A stretch of 64,000 nt of DNA, taken from assembly GCF_000730385.1 (NCBI RefSeq), contig NZ_CP008849.1, forward strand, positions 3,844,001-3,908,000, written 5' to 3'. Shown in pieces: positions 52,834 to 62,249 of the stretch. The DNA is from Alteromonas australica (GTDB lineage Bacteria; Pseudomonadota; Gammaproteobacteria; Enterobacterales; Alteromonadaceae). Below the pieces are notes generated by a model, which worked only from the letters and a program-made list of their open reading frames with translations, ran no database searches and was not told the DNA's origin. Position 1 is the stretch's first letter, and each line of letters begins with the position of its first letter. The translations under genes were made by a program, and so were the position numbers.

Positions 52834-52848
52834 TCTTTATTTACTTCC

Positions 52849-54801
52849 TCAGTCGATGACGACTTGATTTCTACCGTTTTCTTTAGCTCTATACAAGAGG
52901 GTGTCTGCACGTTTAATTAAAGAATCCAAAGAATTAGGTGATTTGCTATTTAGCGTTGCTCCTACGCTAAATGTCATCTCTTTCTTTGGATTAAAAGCTT
53001 CAATGGCATCGCAATATTTTTGGAAGGCGACGGCAAGCTTTTGAAAGATGTTTCTAACTACTTTTTCATCTGCCGAATTTAAGACGAATAACCATTCCTC
53101 ACCACCGTATCGGCCAAATTCGTCGCCTTTAGGTAATGTATCTTTTGCTGCATTGGCAAAAGCAATTAGCACCATGTCGCCTATGTCGTGGCCATACTCG
53201 TCATTAATCTTTTTAAAGTAGTCTAGGTCAACAATAGCGATGGATACACTATGATGAGCTAGCTTAACGCTGGCAGCATTAAGTATTCCCCTACGGTTGA
53301 GACAGTCTGATAAATGATCGGTTGATGCCATACGATGGTATTTTTTTCGTTGGCGCACTTGCCGATAAAATAATAGCAAAGCCACAAGTACTAAAATAAA
53401 CGCTATTGCCGCACTAAGGCGCCAAATTATTTTTTGTTGATACTCTTCTTTTGCCTGAAGTTCACTGATATTTTTTTGGTATTCTAACCTTCGAATTTCA
53501 TCTTCTTTTTCTTTGACTTCAAACTTGACTTGCAGGGCTTTAATATTGCTTTCGCTGGTCGCTTCATAATGCTTATTAATGAAAAAAAGCTTTTTCTCCA
53601 GCGCTTCGAATGCTTCATCTACTTGATTAATCTTACGTTTTAGTTCATACCTTTCACCAAAAAACTCTGCTTTATAAATACTACGGCTAAATTTTTCAAT
53701 GAGGTTAAAAACGTCATCATTTATTTGATTCGCTACTTCCAAGTTACCCTTTTCAATATATATATTACTCAGCAGGATCATAGAAGCCAGTTGCATATCA
53801 TGAATACCCGAAGCCCGTGCAAGCTCTATATTTTCCTGAGCTAACTGTAAAGCCTCATCAAGATTGCCTTGAAGATATTGAACATTAGCAATGGAATATT
53901 GAGCAAAAGCTAACCCCTTTTTCATGTTTACTTTTTCAAAATAAGCCAGGGCTTTATGTAAGTAGAGCAACGCATTTGGGGTGTCATCGTTTTCTAGAAG
54001 TATATTGCCTAGGCTCCAATATGCCTTAGCAGTAAAAAGGCCGTCATTCGTTTTTTCAAACGTACTAACAGCCTTTTTAGCGTAATATATCCCTTTATCG
54101 CTTTCACTAAGGTAGGTGTAGGCGTCAGCTATTTTTCGGTAAAAATAACCTTGAGAAGCTACATCGCCTGTTTGCATCGCCAACTCGAGGCCATCTAAAG
54201 CCGCTTTCAGCGTTTTGCGCAACGCATCATCAGCCGTATAGTAATAAGCTAAAGCTCGATAGATAGTAATTTTTTCATCGTTTGAATGTTGCGATAGCTG
54301 TACTTCTAGCTTTTTCGCAAGTGCTTGTGCTGGGGCTGGATCATCCATTAATGTTAAAGACTTTAATTTCGTCTCTAGAAATAATAAATGAATGTCTTCT
54401 CGTTCTATGAACTCTTTTTTATCTAAGTAATATTGAAGGTGTGACGTTAAATCGCTGTATTTTTCTTGTCTGAAAAGAAGCTCGGAATAAAGCGCTGCCG
54501 CTTCAGCGTGAAGCGAATTCCAACCCTTTTCTTTAGCCACATTAAATACTTCCTTTAGGCTTTTTTCATTTTCAAGGTAATCAAGTCTGCTTTTTCTTAC
54601 GTCACTAATAAACTGCTGAATCGCTTCACGATTCGGCGTATCTAGAGCGAGCTCGAGTGCTAGGCTCTGAAGGCTAAAAGAAAACACGGAAGCGAGCACG
54701 AATGCTCTGAAAAAATATCGAATACTTAGGCCTCTTGAGTGGGTGTTATTTTCAACAATTATCACTTTTGAACCAGCAAACTTAATCACACCATTTATCA
54801 C
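52849..54801 (-). CDS. TPR-GGDEF diguanylate cyclase, membrane anchored
   Basis: Up to 650 residues; the N-terminus is uncertain because the frame opens with GTG before a signal peptide (FFRAFVLASVFSFSLQSLAL, near 30-49). A periplasmic array of TPR-like helices fills about 55-430, a coiled coil lies near 420-455 (KEKEDEIRRLEYQKNISELQ), one transmembrane helix near 467-485, and a GGDEF domain at about 500-650. The active loop reads RYGGEEW, a variant with Trp in the fifth place; the magnesium-binding Asp (VDLDYFKKIND) is kept, so cyclase activity is plausible. It likely senses a periplasmic signal. Confidence 0.85.
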   Translation of the reverse strand: MINGVIKFAGSKVIIVENNTHSRGLSIRYFFRAFVLASVFSFSLQSLALELALDTPNREAIQQFISDVRKSRLDYLENEKSLKEVFNVAKEKGWNSLHAEAAALYSELLFRQEKYSDLTSHLQYYLDKKEFIEREDIHLLFLETKLKSLTLMDDPAPAQALAKKLEVQLSQHSNDEKITIYRALAYYYTADDALRKTLKAALDGLELAMQTGDVASQGYFYRKIADAYTYLSESDKGIYYAKKAVSTFEKTNDGLFTAKAYWSLGNILLENDDTPNALLYLHKALAYFEKVNMKKGLAFAQYSIANVQYLQGNLDEALQLAQENIELARASGIHDMQLASMILLSNIYIEKGNLEVANQINDDVFNLIEKFSRSIYKAEFFGERYELKRKINQVDEAFEALEKKLFFINKHYEATSESNIKALQVKFEVKEKEDEIRRLEYQKNISELQAKEEYQQKIIWRLSAAIAFILVLVALLLFYRQVRQRKKYHRMASTDHLSDCLNRRGILNAASVKLAHHSVSIAIVDLDYFKKINDEYGHDIGDMVLIAFANAAKDTLPKGDEFGRYGGEEWLFVLNSADEKVVRNIFQKLAVAFQKYCDAIEAFNPKKEMTFSVGATLNSKSPNSLDSLIKRADTLLYRAKENGRNQVVID

Positions 54802-55088
54802 TATAGCACTTCTTTACAAAGTTAAACCCATGTTTTTCGTTAATAATTTCCATCTAAATTGAAGTATTCAACGCTAACTCTAACTCACGCAGACAATCAT
54901 GATTCAATAAGACTGCATGACAAGGTCTACTTTACCCTTATGATGATTGTTTAAAGGGTCGGTTCACTTATCAATCTCACCCTAATACCTCTATCATCAC
55001 GTTTTCGTCACGTTTTTTCACACAAAAATCATTACATTGATTCATAAATTGAGCACCCTGTAATAAATCAACAAGGGACGACTTAGTA

Positions 55089-55976
55089 ATGAATTCAAAC
55101 CTAATAATACGAACTTTAGCGCTGTTGCTGACACTGGCTGCCTTTCATTCATACGCGGTTATCACCCGACATGATGTGGACCCAGCCCGTTATAAAATCG
55201 ATACACCACCAGAATATTTTATTGATATGCCTTTTCAAGGTGCAGCAGTCTTAATTGATAAACATTGGTTACTTGCTCCTGCACACGTTATCTACACGTT
55301 TATGTATGAATATCAAAACAAACCCATAGCCATACACGGGGTCGATAACGTAATTGCAGAGGTTATTTTGCACCCTGATTACGAACGAGTAGGGGCATCA
55401 TCAGATAACTCCCTGTTGACGCAGCTTAATAACAGCGTAGATATTGCATTAATCAGGCTGGAACATCCGGTGACCCATGTTTCGCCTATTCCACTTTATG
55501 GTAGCAACGATGAGAAAGGTATGAAAGTTACAGGATTTGGTCGCGGTGCCATAGGCACAGGGCTAACTGGCGAGGTTGAAGACAGTCAAGGACCAGGCTA
55601 CGTGACCTATTATTGGTATCAAATCACAAAGTTCTTCTCAGACTGGGCATTTACTCAGGAAAACTATCAGCTTCAACAGTACAACAACCAGATAACTGAA
55701 GCCTCACAGCAATGGCTAAAATTTTCATTCGAAAAAGAAGACAACGCCATGCCCCTTGAAGGGACTATTGGTTCAGGGGACAGTGGTGGCGCGATTGTGA
55801 TTTTTCGAGATAACAAGCCAGTTTTACTAGGCATGGCTTCATGGCGAGAATTTGAAGGAGATGTGAAGCAATTTAGCTTTGGACACTATGATGAGGTTGC
55901 AGTTTTTACACGGGTTTCATATTTTAAGGAGTGGATAATGGAACATGTTGAAACTGCTGAGGTAATTTTTAGGTAG
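55089..55976 (+). CDS. Secreted trypsin-like (S1) serine protease
   Basis: A 295-residue exported protease with signal peptide (ALLLTLAAFHSYA). The triad is His in LLAPAHVIY (near 70), Asp in NSVDIALIRL (near 121) and Ser in GSGDSGGAIV (near 232). Before the active Ser is an insertion of about 60 residues rich in Tyr and Gln. No propeptide or second domain. Substrate unknown. It lies divergently beside the GGDEF gene. Confidence 0.88.
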   Translation: MNSNLIIRTLALLLTLAAFHSYAVITRHDVDPARYKIDTPPEYFIDMPFQGAAVLIDKHWLLAPAHVIYTFMYEYQNKPIAIHGVDNVIAEVILHPDYERVGASSDNSLLTQLNNSVDIALIRLEHPVTHVSPIPLYGSNDEKGMKVTGFGRGAIGTGLTGEVEDSQGPGYVTYYWYQITKFFSDWAFTQENYQLQQYNNQITEASQQWLKFSFEKEDNAMPLEGTIGSGDSGGAIVIFRDNKPVLLGMASWREFEGDVKQFSFGHYDEVAVFTRVSYFKEWIMEHVETAEVIFR

Positions 55977-55994
55977 TTAGCTGCCTAGAAAGCA

Positions 55995-56023
55995 ATGGTG
56001 TATTCATCCTATGAATACACCAT
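55995..56023 (+). terminator. Perfect 13-bp hairpin after the protease gene
   Basis: ATGGTGTATTCAT and ATGAATACACCAT flank a 3-base loop, 19 bases after the stop. No T-run follows, so it may stabilise the mRNA end rather than terminate. Confidence 0.6.
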
Positions 56024-56221
56024 GAGGACGTCAGTCTCTCACACCGTTGGTATCAATGATTGTAAATTTCTCAAGATAGCGTGTGAGCGAAGCAGTTTCG
56101 TCGACTTACCTCACCAGCCCTTAAAATATTCAGTCAAACAGATTTGGATTCAGCGGTAAGTACTCGTTGATGCTTCCGCGTGTGTCTGGCTGCTTAAGAC
56201 AAGGAGCGGACCTTTACCGCT

Positions 56222-57697
56222 TCAATCAGCCGCCACGTTAGCGGTCGGTTGCTTTGATTTGTTAAGTGACGTTGCTTCGATATCCAATATGATTAGGCCA
56301 TTTCGTTCGGGGTAGCTGATAATCACCTCATCGCTAATAATTTCGAGGTCTCGCGGGCCATTTGGCGCCTCCCCTAGATAAAAGGTCTCAATAACTTCGA
56401 GAGATGTTTTGTCTAGCACGGCTAGTTCGCAATTGTTTCTATTCAATGAAAGGAGGTAGTTTTCATAAACTTTAACAGATAAAGGATCGACCCAATTGAA
56501 GTGTTTATTATGGGCGCCTTTCTGAAATCTAATGTCAGCACAAACCTCATAAGAATTGGAATCGACAACGCAAACCCCTCGCATTGACTGAAACATACCT
56601 ATGTATATTTTTTGATCTTGTGGATCGATCTCTATACAAGCCGGAGTTGCATCATCTGAACGCCCATTATTGATCTCTGCGAGGTATAGAGTTTTCAAAT
56701 ATTCTTTCCGAGAAAGATCATAGACTGCCACAAAGCAATTTCCACCAAAATATGAAACTCCATTTAGCTTCCCTCCACGCTGTACCCCAATATATATAAT
56801 CCTACCGCCTGGGTCTGCGGATAAGGACATGCAGCCACGTCCACCTAATGGGTAACTAATAGGTTCAAATTTATAGGTAGCACTATCTATTATATAAAAC
56901 TGATTTTCTTTATTACTTGCAAAATAGATGGATTTTTCATCAGGAGATACGGCTATTTGTCCCTCTCCGCCTCCGGGGAGATAAATGCGCTTTACAATAG
57001 AATGAGTTTCAATATCAATTACAAGCAGAAAGTCCGAGAATACTTGGCCAACAAAAAGTCTCCCTTCAGCTATAGCCATATCTCCAGCCGGATGTTTTCG
57101 AATAACACGCTTACCGGTTCTTGAAGATTTTGATTCATATCTGTCTAGTTCAATAGTTCTAACTATCGTTCGTTTTTTTGGATCTACGATTGATATTGTT
57201 CCGCTTCCCCAATTAGCTGAAACTATAAGCTCTCCATATCTCAATAAGTGTTGGGGCTTTGAGTCATCTGGGAACTTATAGATCACCATACCATTTCCGC
57301 TATCAGAATAGATAAGCTGCTCTTCGCTGGAATTGGTTGATGCAGTTCTCTCAAATTCTTCTATTGATGTGACGAGAGTGATATTTGTATCTCGGACTGC
57401 ATCTAGTGCTCCAGATTGAAATCCTTTTTCACTAACAATAATTCCTCGGTCCGCACCCACATCATCCACGATTGACTTTAGCGCCATAACCTTTTCTTTA
57501 GGCACTTTAGTTTTCCAAAGCTTGCATTCAACGACCCAGGTGCATTCAATACCCGAACGATGAAATTTCACATGCACATCGACTTCATGCTTTGCTCGTA
57601 CACCTTGTACTATTTTTTCCACTTCGGCGTTGCAGCCTTGCCTTCTAAAGAAAGCAGCAACTTCGTTTTGATATGCACGCCAATCTGAAAATTTCAA
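56222..57697 (-). CDS. Mrr-type restriction endonuclease domain fused to a beta-propeller
   Basis: About 491 residues. I start it at the TTG at 57697 because AGGGAGG lies 5 bases before it; an in-frame GTG at 57715 sits upstream of that site. Residues 1-115 look like an Mrr/REase fold: HEVDVHV (metal Asp), WVVECKLWKTKVPKEKV (E-x-K) and VDDVGADRGIIVSEKGFQSGA. After a short linker, from about 130 on, are repeated blades (SANWGSGTISIVDP, LLVIDIETHSIVKRIYLP, IAVSPDEKSIYFASN, CVVDSNSYEVCADI, LAVLDKTSLEVIETFYLGE), a YVTN-like propeller of six or seven blades. No signal peptide, so cytoplasmic. A nuclease gated by a ligand-sensing propeller is inference. Confidence 0.75.
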   Translation of the reverse strand: MKFSDWRAYQNEVAAFFRRQGCNAEVEKIVQGVRAKHEVDVHVKFHRSGIECTWVVECKLWKTKVPKEKVMALKSIVDDVGADRGIIVSEKGFQSGALDAVRDTNITLVTSIEEFERTASTNSSEEQLIYSDSGNGMVIYKFPDDSKPQHLLRYGELIVSANWGSGTISIVDPKKRTIVRTIELDRYESKSSRTGKRVIRKHPAGDMAIAEGRLFVGQVFSDFLLVIDIETHSIVKRIYLPGGGEGQIAVSPDEKSIYFASNKENQFYIIDSATYKFEPISYPLGGRGCMSLSADPGGRIIYIGVQRGGKLNGVSYFGGNCFVAVYDLSRKEYLKTLYLAEINNGRSDDATPACIEIDPQDQKIYIGMFQSMRGVCVVDSNSYEVCADIRFQKGAHNKHFNWVDPLSVKVYENYLLSLNRNNCELAVLDKTSLEVIETFYLGEAPNGPRDLEIISDEVIISYPERNGLIILDIEATSLNKSKQPTANVAAD

Positions 57698-57742
57698 TAA
57701 TGCCTCCCTAGGCACTTAACATTCTATTATTGAGATTTCATG

Positions 57743-57847
57743 GTAACACCCGTTTCCACTGAAAAACCATATTCTGTGTATTCATGGGAAGGAATATGAA
57801 ATGTTTGCTGTACTTACGGAACTACCCTACAGCAAGCATTGACGGGC
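57743..57847 (-). repeat. Diverged upstream repeat, copy 1
   Basis: On the plus strand GTAACACCCGTTTCCACTGA, then GAATATGAAATGT, GTACTT and TTGACGGGC recur in the same order at 60230-60331. It lies directly upstream of the nuclease-propeller gene. The rest of 57716-58191 carries copies of an AGCGGACATT motif (57859, 57908) and no gene. Confidence 0.65.
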
Positions 57848-58191
57848 ATCAAAAGACAAAGAGCGGACATTCAATGATGTGATTTTCTACTTCTTACTTT
57901 GGTCAATAGCGGACATTAACGCCGTAAACAGGGGGGAGCTGTAATGAGGCCCCTGCCAGATTTGATTTGCTGATGTTTATGGTAGCAGGTATCTACTTTA
58001 TGAATAGGATTTAAGCCTATGACTCATATGGATTCTTTAATCATGATTTAACTAAATCGAAGTTTCCAAGCATAAAAACACTAAATACAGCCAATTTTAA
58101 GGTTGGTTTAAACAAAATTCAGTGAAGAGCCCGGTTCATCTGTTTTAACTGTCACAACCGATAGTTACTTTTCTGGTACTGGAGCACCTAT

Positions 58192-58359
58192 ATGAAATTT
58201 AATAAAATTGTACTTTTTTCGCTAACACTGCTATCGATAATAGTATACCCATTGATTTTCGACACAAATTTGGCTATTCATTTAGCTCAGAATATACAAA
58301 ACTTTTTGCTGGCCTTCACGACATCCATCCTTTCTGTAATGTTCTATAAAAAACACTAA
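58192..58359 (+). CDS. Small membrane peptide, 55 residues
   Basis: A short frame, MKFNKIVLFS to FYKKH, with two hydrophobic helices (about 5-23 and 37-51) joined by a loop with Asp and Asn, and a basic tail. GGAG lies 7 bases before the ATG, a good start signal in otherwise non-coding DNA. No family recognised. It faces the two-gene AlbA_2 unit convergently; a link is possible but not shown. Confidence 0.5.
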   Translation: MKFNKIVLFSLTLLSIIVYPLIFDTNLAIHLAQNIQNFLLAFTTSILSVMFYKKH

Positions 58360-58433
58360 CGTCTTATTGATGGGCGCATAAATGCTTGGCTGAAATTAGC
58401 GATGAAGGAGCGCAGGCCAAGCGTTTTACGTCT

Positions 58434-58754
58434 CTAAGAGTAACTGTAGAGCACATTACTTACTACTTCCGCTTTTCGCTCTAACTCATCCTTCTCAGGG
58501 TCTTCCAAGTCCCACTGAGATAAGCACACATATGAGCCAGATGTTAGTCCATCTATTTTCGCCATGATAGAAGGATCGTTATCATCACCGAACCGAACAA
58601 CATAACCATAAAGCAATCCATCGTTGCTGTAATCGCCATCAATTTCGTAAGCGATTTGCTCTAATTCACCTTCGGTAACTCCAAGAAGAGCAGCTAAGCG
58701 ACTATTTTTTTGTTCTTCAATTCTATCAAGCCAGTAGTCTTTATTACTGCCCAT
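58434..58754 (-). CDS. Small acidic protein next to the AlbA_2 gene
   Basis: A 106-residue acidic protein (MGSNKDYWLDRIEEQKNSRL to LYSYS), with no membrane segment or signal. I start it at the ATG at 58754 since GGGAG is 8 bases upstream; a TTG just before is possible. It has a helical, charged N-terminus (RIEEQKNSRLAALLGVTEGELEQ) and a beta-rich middle. I recognise no family. It follows the AlbA_2 gene by 39 bases on the same strand, so they probably form a unit. Confidence 0.6.
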   Translation of the reverse strand: MGSNKDYWLDRIEEQKNSRLAALLGVTEGELEQIAYEIDGDYSNDGLLYGYVVRFGDDNDPSIMAKIDGLTSGSYVCLSQWDLEDPEKDELERKAEVVSNVLYSYS

Positions 58755-58793
58755 CAATGTGACTCCCTGCGAGGACGTGACAATTTAATAGGT

Positions 58794-60182
58794 TCATAGT
58801 CGTCTCTCAACTAAGCGCCGTACGAGGTCTTCAGTTACACTTTCATTAATTTCGAAGCCGCTGAACACTTGAAATAGTGGTGTAATTACTTGATGTATAT
58901 AGCCTGAATAAGCACTTATAGCTGTATCGACAGGTACAGTTATATTCGTAGTTAAAGTATCTTGATGCGCAACTGCTGACCAAGATAACATTCTATTAGG
59001 GTTTGCCCATGAACTTAGGCTTCTGCCTTGTAACCCTTTCCATCTGAAAGTAAAACTAACATTTGACGTTTCTGAAGCCCCTAAAGATTTCGCGAACTCA
59101 ATTGCTACAACTACACATTCTGCAATTCTCAAAATCATCAATGCAAAGTCGAGCACAGTGCCAGCCGCAGGTGTCCTATCTCCCCCACCAACATCATCTT
59201 GTAATGCCCTATGTAAATAAAATTTACCATCAGGGCTCAAACGCCAATAGTCAATATGATCACCAAAGCCTCTATCCAGACTTACGATTAGTGCTTCCCA
59301 GTATCCATCGAAAACAAATGGCCTTGCAGAATCATCAGTAAAAGAACGACTATCACACCATACTGGCCATCCTGTATATCTTGGGTTGCTAGAAGCCAAT
59401 AAATTTAAAAAGTTTACATTAGTTGTGTGCTCATTTATCTCGCCTGTTACAACAGCAGCTACTTCGTAGCTTCCAAATGCTGGCAAGGTTAAATTGCGCT
59501 CACCTACAACTGTTTGAAATCTCCCATATGATTCTTCAATAAATTCAGCGGGCGTATCATTGTTTTCTTCAGGGGTCTCAATTCCTCTTAAAGTTTGAAT
59601 TAGTTCTGATAAATGTTCACCTGACAAACTTGTTAAGTGACGTCTTAAAAACCGCCCCACATCAGCTTCTCTATTATCAAAACATTTTTCGACAATTGAG
59701 GGCCAGTCTGACCATTTAGCTTCTGTTGTACTAGGAGTGTTATTAGAACTCAACGAGCGTATTATGACTTTATGTGCTCTTATAAAATGTCGATCGCCTT
59801 CTTGAAGCCCTGACTTTGTTGCTACTGGAGATTTAACTCCTGATGGCGCTTCAACAACAACGAACGTATTATCGTCTAACACAGGGTAGTGGACACTTAT
59901 CTCGAATGCCTCTGAAGAAAACCGAGATATAAGCCCTTGGATAATATCGACATGGAAAAGCTCACTGACATTGTCAGGCCCGTTAGGGTTTGGACTTCCG
60001 TCTGCATCATTAAAACCAATAAGTAAATAACCTCCGTTATTATTTCTCATTGCGATTAATGCTTTAACTATTTTTGACTGTCCCTCTTTAGTATTCGGAT
60101 CAATCCAATCCTTTAACTCTAACGAAAGGCTCTCAACAGGATTGATTATCAACTGTTGAACATGGTTATCTGCTAACGGCAT
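58794..60182 (-). CDS. AlbA_2 (Schlafen-like) domain protein
   Basis: A 462-residue cytoplasmic protein with AAGGAAG before its ATG. Residues about 15-150 are an AlbA_2 domain: ESLSLELKDWIDP, GQSKIVKALIAMRNNNGGYLLIGFND and a PVATKSG...FIRAHKVIIRS end. The Glu/Glu/Lys pattern resembles the nuclease site of Schlafen relatives, and I cannot tell if it is active. The rest (about 160-462) is unassigned, with no helicase motifs, unlike many bacterial AlbA_2 proteins. A small partner gene follows. RNA or DNA binding, perhaps defence, is inference. Confidence 0.75.
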   Translation of the reverse strand: MPLADNHVQQLIINPVESLSLELKDWIDPNTKEGQSKIVKALIAMRNNNGGYLLIGFNDADGSPNPNGPDNVSELFHVDIIQGLISRFSSEAFEISVHYPVLDDNTFVVVEAPSGVKSPVATKSGLQEGDRHFIRAHKVIIRSLSSNNTPSTTEAKWSDWPSIVEKCFDNREADVGRFLRRHLTSLSGEHLSELIQTLRGIETPEENNDTPAEFIEESYGRFQTVVGERNLTLPAFGSYEVAAVVTGEINEHTTNVNFLNLLASSNPRYTGWPVWCDSRSFTDDSARPFVFDGYWEALIVSLDRGFGDHIDYWRLSPDGKFYLHRALQDDVGGGDRTPAAGTVLDFALMILRIAECVVVAIEFAKSLGASETSNVSFTFRWKGLQGRSLSSWANPNRMLSWSAVAHQDTLTTNITVPVDTAISAYSGYIHQVITPLFQVFSGFEINESVTEDLVRRLVERRL

Positions 60183-60229
60183 AAATGGACTTCCTTGTGA
60201 ATTTCAAAACATATTAGTCATAAGCCATA

Positions 60230-60331
60230 GTAACACCCGTTTTCTCTGAAAACACAGTAAGTGTGCTTTCAAAAAGAATATGAAATGTCCGCTTCACGTA
60301 CTTTGCTGCCTAACCTCGAACACTGACGGGC
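60230..60331 (-). repeat. Diverged upstream repeat, copy 2
   Basis: GTAACACCCGTTTTCTCTGA, GAATATGAAATGT, GTACTT and CTGACGGGC match copy 1 at 57743 in order and spacing, with about two-thirds identity by eye. It lies 48 bases upstream of the AlbA_2 start. Confidence 0.65.
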
Positions 60332-60440
60332 TTTAATAAACAAAATATAGTCACCACTACTTATAAGTTTGAGTTGAGCCTTGCGCTCAAGTGGTTGAGT
60401 GTATCGCTAACCTTAGTTGAGGATGAACGCACTGGAAACT

Positions 60441-60673
60441 TCAGGGTTCTTTAAACATCGTTGTAAGCAACCTTTCTCGTAGCGTTTTTCCGCTCACTTC
60501 GTCAATTAGAATAGCTAACAGCACATAGCCTATGTTGCCATAGTGCCATTTAATGTCTGGCGCATGGGCAAGAGGCAACGTTTTAACAAGAACGTGAAAC
60601 TCTTCCACCGTAAGATAGTCTTCATTGCCAATACGAAACGGGTTACCCGATACAGCGGAAGACATCAATAAGG
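60441..60673 (-). pseudogene. Fragment of a beta-lactamase-family serine hydrolase
   Basis: About 78 codons encode the middle of a class C-like serine hydrolase: MTLLMSSAVSGNPFR, then WHYGNIGYVLLAILIDEVSGKTLRERL with the Y-x-N motif. The Ser-x-x-Lys part upstream and all after MFKEP are gone. It abuts an unrelated fragment, so it is a fossil. Confidence 0.75.
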
Positions 60674-60751
60674 TCATAGGGTCTGCATCCCAAAAACGTA
60701 TTCCACACCTTCGTCTTCTAACGCTTTTACAAACAAGTCAGACGCTTTCAT
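60674..60751 (-). pseudogene. N-terminal stub of a thiamine-diphosphate enzyme (acetolactate synthase-like)
   Basis: AAAAGGAGAGAGGAG precedes an ATG and 25 codons, MKASDLFVKALEDEGVEYVFG then a stop after MQTL. The first 21 match the start of acetolactate-synthase-like enzymes, where VFGIPGE would follow. Homology stops at VFG, where the serine-hydrolase fragment is joined. Confidence 0.7.
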
Positions 60752-60883
60752 GTGCTCCTCTCTCCTTTTAAGCTAAAAAATAATAGAGATCTTCGCTACG
60801 AGAAACCATCATAGGGATTTAAGACAGATAAAAAAATGTCCGCGAGCAAGCGCGGCATAATTTCAATGAAGGAAGAGGCGTGT

Positions 60884-61762
60884 TTATTCGCTAATAATAA
60901 TACGTTTATAGGCAAGTAATGAGCCGTCTTCATTCTGTTCTATATCGAACAGGTAATCGTTATAGTCACTGCCAAAAACCGTATCTTGCCCTAGCAATGT
61001 ATCAGGCTCTCCATGATGACTGTAGTCAACATGATTAGTACAAATGTCCTGACAAAACGCGTCAGTAAAGCCGAACTGAGAAATCAACTGATCATTGTTA
61101 TTGCGACGAATGCGGAAGTGAATATGTATTGCTCTACTGCTATACCAACCAGGGAAGCAACTTTTTAGATTAACTCTGCCGCTGGAATCTGTTACCGCAA
61201 TGCCTCGAAACCATTTGGCGCTCAGTGCGTCAGATTCATTGTCGGTACAGAAAGAGGAATTAAAATTGCTGCTGTCCGCACTGTCACTTGTATCACCAGA
61301 ATAAATACCGTCAACATCACAGTGCCATACTTCAATTTCGTAGCCAGAAAGCGGATTACAACTTTCATCGATAAGCTGAAGACACAACATCATCGGTAGC
61401 CCGGTTTGCTCTTCGGAGATATCATCAAGATAGTCACTTTGAAAATAGCAAGGGCCTTCCGTTTGCGCGCCAGTTAGCGCAACGCTGCATACTGAACTGC
61501 TCTCGAACAAAGAATCATCTGGGAAGTCAGATACCATTGAGGCAGTGCCGCCACTTGCCCAGCCATCGGTACTCGTATCACTGCCATTATCGGTGCTATC
61601 GTCAGACCCAGTGGAACCATTTGTGTCAGAAGTGGTGGAATTAGAATCAGAGCTACCGCAACCCCATAAGCCAATAGCGATAGGCGCTAGGGTAAGTCCA
61701 GCTGCCGTTTTAATGAAACGACGTCTCTTCAATGTTGTTTTATTATCTCGCTCTAAGGTCAT
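60884..61762 (-). CDS. Tat-exported intradiol-dioxygenase-like lipoprotein
   Basis: A 292-residue protein. The N-terminus has a twin-arginine signal (KRRRFIKTAAG) and a lipobox-like LWGCGSS, then a Ser/Asp/Thr linker of about 40 residues. The intradiol ring-cleavage domain (about 90-290) has EGPCYFQSD, EVWHCDVDGIYSGD (Tyr ligand) and PGWYSSRAIHIHFRIRR (Tyr and two His), all four iron ligands. Its substrate is unknown; surface members of this family lack a pathway neighbour, as here. Confidence 0.85.
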   Translation of the reverse strand: MTLERDNKTTLKRRRFIKTAAGLTLAPIAIGLWGCGSSDSNSTTSDTNGSTGSDDSTDNGSDTSTDGWASGGTASMVSDFPDDSLFESSSVCSVALTGAQTEGPCYFQSDYLDDISEEQTGLPMMLCLQLIDESCNPLSGYEIEVWHCDVDGIYSGDTSDSADSSNFNSSFCTDNESDALSAKWFRGIAVTDSSGRVNLKSCFPGWYSSRAIHIHFRIRRNNNDQLISQFGFTDAFCQDICTNHVDYSHHGEPDTLLGQDTVFGSDYNDYLFDIEQNEDGSLLAYKRIIISE

Positions 61763-61878
61763 TATTATGTTTCTTAAAAGTTGTGGTATTTGTAAAGACT
61801 ACCTATACACAATTGCGTTCTACTCTTTACGCAAACTTTACGAGAGCTGACCAAATTATTAACTCAACATTGCGAATA

Positions 61879-62124
61879 TTAGGCTCCATTGCTTTGCGAC
61901 TTCCATTGTTCAAGTGCCTGTTGGGTCGCTTTGTCTACATTCGCTTTATTTTCAAAAATCCACCAACGCTCCATAATTCTTACATTCTTCTGATTTGCTT
62001 TGTAAAAAATATCAGCGACATCTCCGACAAAGGGAATAAGTTCCTTTTCAATGTAATCTAAGAAAGCATCCGCTTTACCGCTGGGTACATCGGCAGTTGC
62101 GTGTGGGGTAGGCGTATAATCTAT
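61879..62124 (-). pseudogene. DUF4112-like C-terminal remnant
   Basis: An open stretch of about 80 codons with no start at its head. It includes ELIPFVGDVADIFYKANQKNVRIMERWW, resembling the end of DUF4112 membrane proteins (VGD...KAN..N). The first helix is absent, so it looks like a decayed gene tail. Confidence 0.55.
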
Positions 62125-62249
62125 CTATCAATATTCAAACTTACGAATGCTTTAGCAATAATAGTGAGTATTTCAAAGTAATGAGTTTGGTCTTCTCTCA
62201 AATACCTAGGCGTGTGTCAGACTTGTCCCTGCTCCACCGCTGTTAGCTT

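Follow-up and report, generated by a model that had tools for sequence, protein, structure and literature searches.

Both the Mrr-propeller architecture and the carriage of anti-phage genes by integrons have already been published (PMC9519451; PMC12444791). Vassallo et al. 2022 (PMC9519451) described an E. coli system made up of an N-terminal Mrr-family nuclease and a seven-bladed beta-propeller, which was validated by phage selection. The main text of that study gives neither a name nor a sequence for this system, and no name for it was found in other literature; on this first discovery, its authors listed among the open questions how the nuclease is controlled by the propeller during phage defence. 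The anti-phage cassettes of integrons are documented by Darracq 2025, Getz 2025 and Kieffer 2025, as cited in PMC12444791. Two further points of reference are PD-lambda-3, which serves as an abortive-infection control in PMC13190303, and the propeller protein YncE of E. coli, for which single-stranded DNA binding is reported in PMC5120174, citing Kagawa 2011.

The locus studied here lies in a stretch of 64,000 nucleotides of Alteromonas australica, hereafter the window. The first-pass annotation of this stretch had recognised a Mrr-type nuclease fused to a YVTN-like propeller, a description that holds: both parts belong to one uninterrupted open reading frame (Table 1). The gene is on the minus strand, a point on which that annotation was silent. 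Its preferred start is a TTG codon at 57697 preceded by TAGGGAGG, and the TGA stop codon ends at 56222. An alternative start, a GTG at 57715, 18 nt upstream, would extend the protein to 497 aa; over these 491-497 aa there are zero internal stops. A direct reading of the sequence finds no hydrophobic leader or signal peptide, in agreement with what had been noted before.

Table 1 Features of the fusion gene, its cassette and its surroundings (positions in the window)
Feature	Position	Strand	Basis or remark
Strain-specific insert of 9.4 kb holding the fusion gene	52834..62249		between the lhr helicase and phosphoesterase genes
Cassette unit shared with the Vreelandella cassette	56218..57719	-	94.5% DNA identity
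attC-like site, 3' end of the cassette	56218..56267	-	R' box GCGGTAAAG, not GTTRRRY
Mrr nuclease-propeller fusion gene	56222..57697	-	491 aa, start as in the enterobacterial homologues
Seven-bladed YVTN/YncE-like beta-propeller (predicted), residues 135-474	56276..57295	-	TIGR02276; AlphaFold2 strands; YncE match
Mrr-type PD-(D/E)xK domain, residues 1-119	57341..57697	-	Pfam Mrr_cat 1.9e-13; model topology; weak nuclease fold matches
Catalytic motif region, D40 to K59 (V39-D40-V41 ... E57-C58-K59)	57521..57580	-	alignment
5' cassette edge: core site GTTAAGT, of integron type (GTTRRRY)	57714..57720	-	closes the preceding attC in Vreelandella (L021, 7996-8002)
Second attC-like site, after the 107-aa gene	58372..58432	-	79% identical to an element near the genome's integron integrase

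The Pfam profile Mrr_cat (PF04471) is matched over residues 11-116, in the numbering of the 497-aa protein (E = 1.9e-13), with 51 bits, above the curated cut-off of 21 bits. The VD and ExK elements previously pointed out in the N-terminal region correspond to V39-D40 and E57-C58-K59. D40, E57 and K59 are invariant across five aligned homologues, and the catalytic motif region is also present in partial relatives of the nuclease domain. When this domain is modelled alone (pLDDT 63), the order of its strands and helices fits a PD-(D/E)xK core. The best Foldseek matches of this model are MspJI and AspBHI, with weak scores (E = 3e-3 to 2e-2; Z < 8), and a second structural search with it returned EndoMS, AF1548 and Can2, whose scores are again weak and which are listed among unrelated folds. 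The restriction endonuclease domain on which the initial reading depended is supported by the profile match and the intact D/ExK residues. Fold searches with the full-length model say little on the nuclease domain, since propeller matches fill the list. NA-iREase1 also matches the domain weakly (0.0004, below the cut-off of that family). Outside the fusion, the N-terminal domain recurs at 38-54% identity in proteins of ~230-300 aa that carry other, short C-terminal parts; from these sequences, the Mrr-type domain appears to be a constant effector with exchangeable partners. One of these proteins, with 261 aa (L063, 4959-5741), is encoded on a plasmid of Vibrio alginolyticus amid genes annotated as DUF3265, a label that we take to be typical of Vibrio integron cassettes, and a putative abortive infection protein is encoded near it.

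The rest of the protein is a propeller, as had been proposed. It matches TIGR02276 (YVTN repeats) in four stretches (3.1e-14) and DUF5074 (1.8e-06). An AlphaFold2 model obtained from two sequences (pLDDT 69.7, pTM 0.64) predicts, according to its strand list read by eye, that residues 137 to 472 form seven blades of four strands each, with an N-terminal strand around 137-141 completing the last blade. The closest structures to the model are those of E. coli YncE (Z = 32.1 and rmsd 2.1 over 286 residues for the best; rmsd 2.1-2.2 among them), the YncE-DNA complex 3vh0 being among the best matches of the propeller, and the identity to YncE over the alignment is 18%. The fusion protein does not belong to the YncE equivalog NF052280 (26.8 bits for a cut-off of 400). 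In sequence searches with phmmer, the archaeal YVTN surface-layer propeller 1l0q is also matched (2e-10).

The fusion is not restricted to this strain. Vreelandella songnenensis (L021) encodes a full-length protein that is 95% identical, and Klebsiella, Salmonella, Enterobacter and E. coli have full-length homologues with 56% identity, carried by 18 plasmids of enterobacteria and by 31 E. coli genomes out of 5,426. Relative to the E. coli homologue, the nuclease is 62% identical and the propeller 54%. The junction between the two domains is the same in the 95% and 56% homologues, which come from other families. The distribution is patchy: the gene is absent from all other congeners searched, and no full fusion outside the window's own genome occurs among the sampled genomes of the order (394), class (369), family (295) and phylum (398), where the other matches cover one domain only. 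A phage origin of the gene was also considered and rejected, as no relative was found in viral contigs and phage genomes gave a match at the level of the propeller only. Between the window and Vreelandella copies, dN/dS is 0.12 with changes spread across both domains, and the fusion protein is under purifying selection.

The first-pass annotation had suggested a search for the same architecture in defence islands, and the enterobacterial homologues are indeed located there. In E. coli and Klebsiella, the homologue starts 20 bp after PD-lambda-3 B and in the same direction, the genes ahead of it being identified by PADLOC as PD-lambda-3 A (2.3e-100) and B (1.2e-179). In many enterobacterial loci, it is followed by genes for a 1,040-aa protein, a phosphoesterase (which carries an anti-phage annotation in one record), a HAD hydrolase and Hachiman; on one plasmid, BREX genes lie upstream. 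The unnamed 1,040-aa protein (E. coli, L025, 16535-19657) has an N-terminal region that looks Mrr-like on direct reading, a weak match to a STAND NTPase (0.006) and zero PADLOC matches; its gene is a candidate defence gene. PD-lambda-3 A/B also occurs without the fusion homologue: this is the case for 19 plasmids and for several chromosomes of E. coli, and the next gene or genes are then Hachiman or Qat in the loci that were read. In strain C8, A/B is followed by a truncated remnant of the homologue. Since PD-lambda-3 A/B is also found without it, the fusion homologue can be separated from the pair, as one member of a defence island that undergoes shuffling. The window encodes no relative of either PD-lambda-3 protein (PDLC03986 and PDLC03987).

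Two points go beyond the first-pass annotation: the design of the protein was already known, and the window copy travelled as an integron-type cassette. The window and Vreelandella DNA are 94.5% identical from 57720 to 56218, and this similarity is limited by two cassette recombination points, GTTAAGT on the upstream side and GAAGCG on the downstream side; because the identity is confined to these limits, the mobile unit is one gene. The 5' boundary has the form G^TTRRRY, with GTTAAGT at 57720-57714, where the sequence shared with the Vreelandella cassette begins. The final 14 codons of the gene (LNKSKQPTANVAAD) represent a read-through into attC at the 3' end, and these residues are missing from the enterobacterial form. 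The equivalent attC of Vreelandella (L021, 9449-9504) is intact and folds into a typical hairpin (-25.7 kcal/mol for the bottom strand). The window copy of the site folds to -15.8 kcal/mol, and the RYYYAAC...GTTRRRY hairpin of an intact attC, present in Vreelandella, was not found at the 3' end in the window. The loss of the 3' core site (now GCGGTAAAG) fits either decay or insertion at a non-classical site. A sigma-70-like promoter was not found just upstream of the gene either and, given this and the damaged 3' site, the window copy may be poorly expressed.

In Vreelandella, the fusion gene forms a cassette in an integron array, and attC-type sites separate the genes around it. Most of the sites escaped a strict attC scan, as the arms of the array attC do not fully match, and the junctions were read by alignment instead. 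The fusion cassette is near a HEC-08/DUF3644 protein (PADLOC, 8e-69). The cassette directly before it (L021, 7232-7930) encodes a 232-aa protein with an RNQIVH (R-x4-H) motif and a weak PADLOC match to RTasHEPN (0.0015), possibly a new HEPN-type defence cassette. The genome to which the window belongs has one integron integrase gene, intI (465.7 bits, cut-off 265), adjoined by attC-like repeats. As this gene is 3.27 Mb away, the fusion gene can be no more than a lone or orphan cassette. The two hosts share only 61% identity in QueA, a housekeeping protein; compared with the 94.5% identity of the cassette DNA, this indicates that the cassette moved recently between distant bacteria.

The first-pass annotation had placed the gene in an accessory segment beside an AlbA_2 protein, and both observations are borne out. 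In 12 congeners, the lhr and phosphoesterase genes are close together and the intervening genes are absent or replaced; much of the 9.4 kb insert is also lower in G+C (0.38-0.43, compared to about 0.46). The AlbA_2 (Schlafen-type) neighbour is encoded at 58794-60182 on the minus strand (PF04326, 6.7e-09). Along its entire length, it matches phrog_38563 (2.7e-123), a family of uncharacterised phage proteins, and the adjacent 107-aa gene has a match to phrog_31861 (1.9e-05). A blastn search with the attC-like site that follows the 107-aa gene retrieved a place near intI (L039, 2720-2781) and two further places. On account of this site, the 107-aa/AlbA_2 pair may likewise have been a cassette, perhaps one with two genes and also present in phages. 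PADLOC gives zero matches for these two proteins, so the window neighbours of the fusion are not known defence genes. Two other observations concern the same insert. The fusion gene and the AlbA_2 gene are each closely preceded by a copy of a ~120 bp repeat (57739-57860 and 60226-60344, respectively; 69% identity), and only a 50-bp piece of it was found elsewhere in the genome (E <= 1e-6). At 60400-60760 on the minus strand, direct reading reveals short remnants resembling the N-terminus of a thiamine-pyrophosphate enzyme and a serine-hydrolase fragment, which suggest decay within the insert.

Several scenarios may explain these data. The one that we consider probable is that the fusion is a single-gene anti-phage nuclease, in which the propeller would recognise that the cell is infected and so activate the Mrr domain or position it. 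We infer for this protein a role in phage defence, cleavage of DNA and sensing by the propeller; the defence role, already suggested by the first-pass annotation, gains support from the enterobacterial defence islands and from the E. coli system of the same architecture (PMC9519451). No phage test of the fusion protein or of its 56% identical homologue was found in the literature. Under this scenario, the Mrr-type PD-(D/E)xK domain would be the DNA-cleaving effector and the cytoplasmic, seven-bladed propeller the recognition part, which would bind a sign of infection such as a protein of the phage or DNA of unusual structure. This binding would then activate or position the nuclease. The gene would spread on its own, by integron recombination in marine and halophilic hosts and by the shuffling of defence islands in enterobacteria. 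A broader version is possible, though we hold it only tentatively: the fusion would belong to a family of immune nucleases that act on their own, each combining a Mrr effector with one of several exchangeable C-terminal recognition parts, and that pass as single-gene integron cassettes between distant bacteria; the YncE-like propeller would here detect, within the cell, a protein or a DNA structure of the phage.

The nature of the trigger leads to a more specific case of the preferred scenario, a modification-dependent, type IV-like enzyme in which the propeller would read a modified base or a DNA structure and the Mrr domain would cut adjacent to it. MspJI and AspBHI are the best structural matches of the nuclease domain, and no methylase gene adjoins the fusion gene. 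Nevertheless, PD-(D/E)xK folds are all alike and the scores are weak. Among propellers, protein binding is commoner. The best match of this propeller, YncE, has a solved DNA complex and a reported binding of single-stranded DNA (PMC5120174), yet YncE is exported and only 18% identical over the alignment; altogether, we regard the DNA-reading enzyme as rather unlikely. The position of the enterobacterial homologue, 20 bp behind PD-lambda-3 B and in the same direction, could alternatively mean that the fusion is a third subunit (C) of an extended PD-lambda-3, acting only together with A (PD-D/ExK) and B (HEPN-like). The existence of A/B without the homologue disfavours such an obligate subunit; moreover, the window encodes neither PD-lambda-3 protein and the unit transferred between Vreelandella and Alteromonas is the fusion gene alone, which makes this explanation improbable. 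It would be still more surprising if the protein were a regulatory or housekeeping one, with an inactive restriction endonuclease fold and no defence role. Inactive domains of this kind exist, and the weak match to NA-iREase1 points in this direction, but the D, E and K residues are intact and invariant, and the patchy distribution, the defence-island or cassette context and the absence from the other congeners searched are at odds with it. Finally, a chance or annotation artefact, in which a frameshift would have joined two genes, had been raised as a possible weakness of the initial reading. Nothing was found in its favor: other families have the full-length protein, with the same junction, at identities of 95% and 56%, and together with the dN/dS of 0.12 this rules it out for practical purposes.

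Among the closest known proteins are the uncharacterised WP_040100796 and WP_004016055, annotated as restriction endonucleases in E. coli and Klebsiella, which are full-length and 56% identical and share the active site and the propeller. They differ from the window copy in their location behind PD-lambda-3 A/B in defence islands, with no cassette, and in lacking the 14-residue tail that results from read-through into attC. YncE and the archaeal YVTN surface-layer propellers have a seven-bladed YVTN propeller, as is predicted for the fusion protein, but they are exported and without a nuclease, whereas the fusion protein has no signal peptide. The modification-dependent nucleases MspJI and AspBHI appear to share the Mrr-type PD-(D/E)xK core, their structural similarity to the N-terminal domain being weak. 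Mrr/MspJI-type nucleases bear other DNA-reading domains (SRA-like or winged-helix), the place of which is occupied by the propeller in the fusion protein. Like the integron anti-phage cassettes (as cited in PMC12444791), the fusion is a single defence-type gene between cassette recombination sites; unlike them, the window copy is 3.27 Mb away from the integrase and its 3' site is degraded. The travel of a Mrr-propeller gene as a one-gene cassette between distant bacteria agrees with the role of integrons as stores of defence genes.

With regard to the system of Vassallo et al. 2022, the fusion protein is the same in domain kinds, order and predicted blade count, according to the published description (PMC9519451). 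The PADLOC models of the named systems from that study do not match the fusion protein or its E. coli homologue, which suggests that the fusion is a distinct sequence family, provided that the published Mrr-propeller system is in PADLOC; the latter may then not be a relative by descent. The family described here offers small, single-gene versions from marine or halophilic bacteria and from E. coli, 56% identical to each other, for finding the target of the propeller. What it adds to the published architecture is the link to PD-lambda-3 islands and the transfer as a one-gene cassette.
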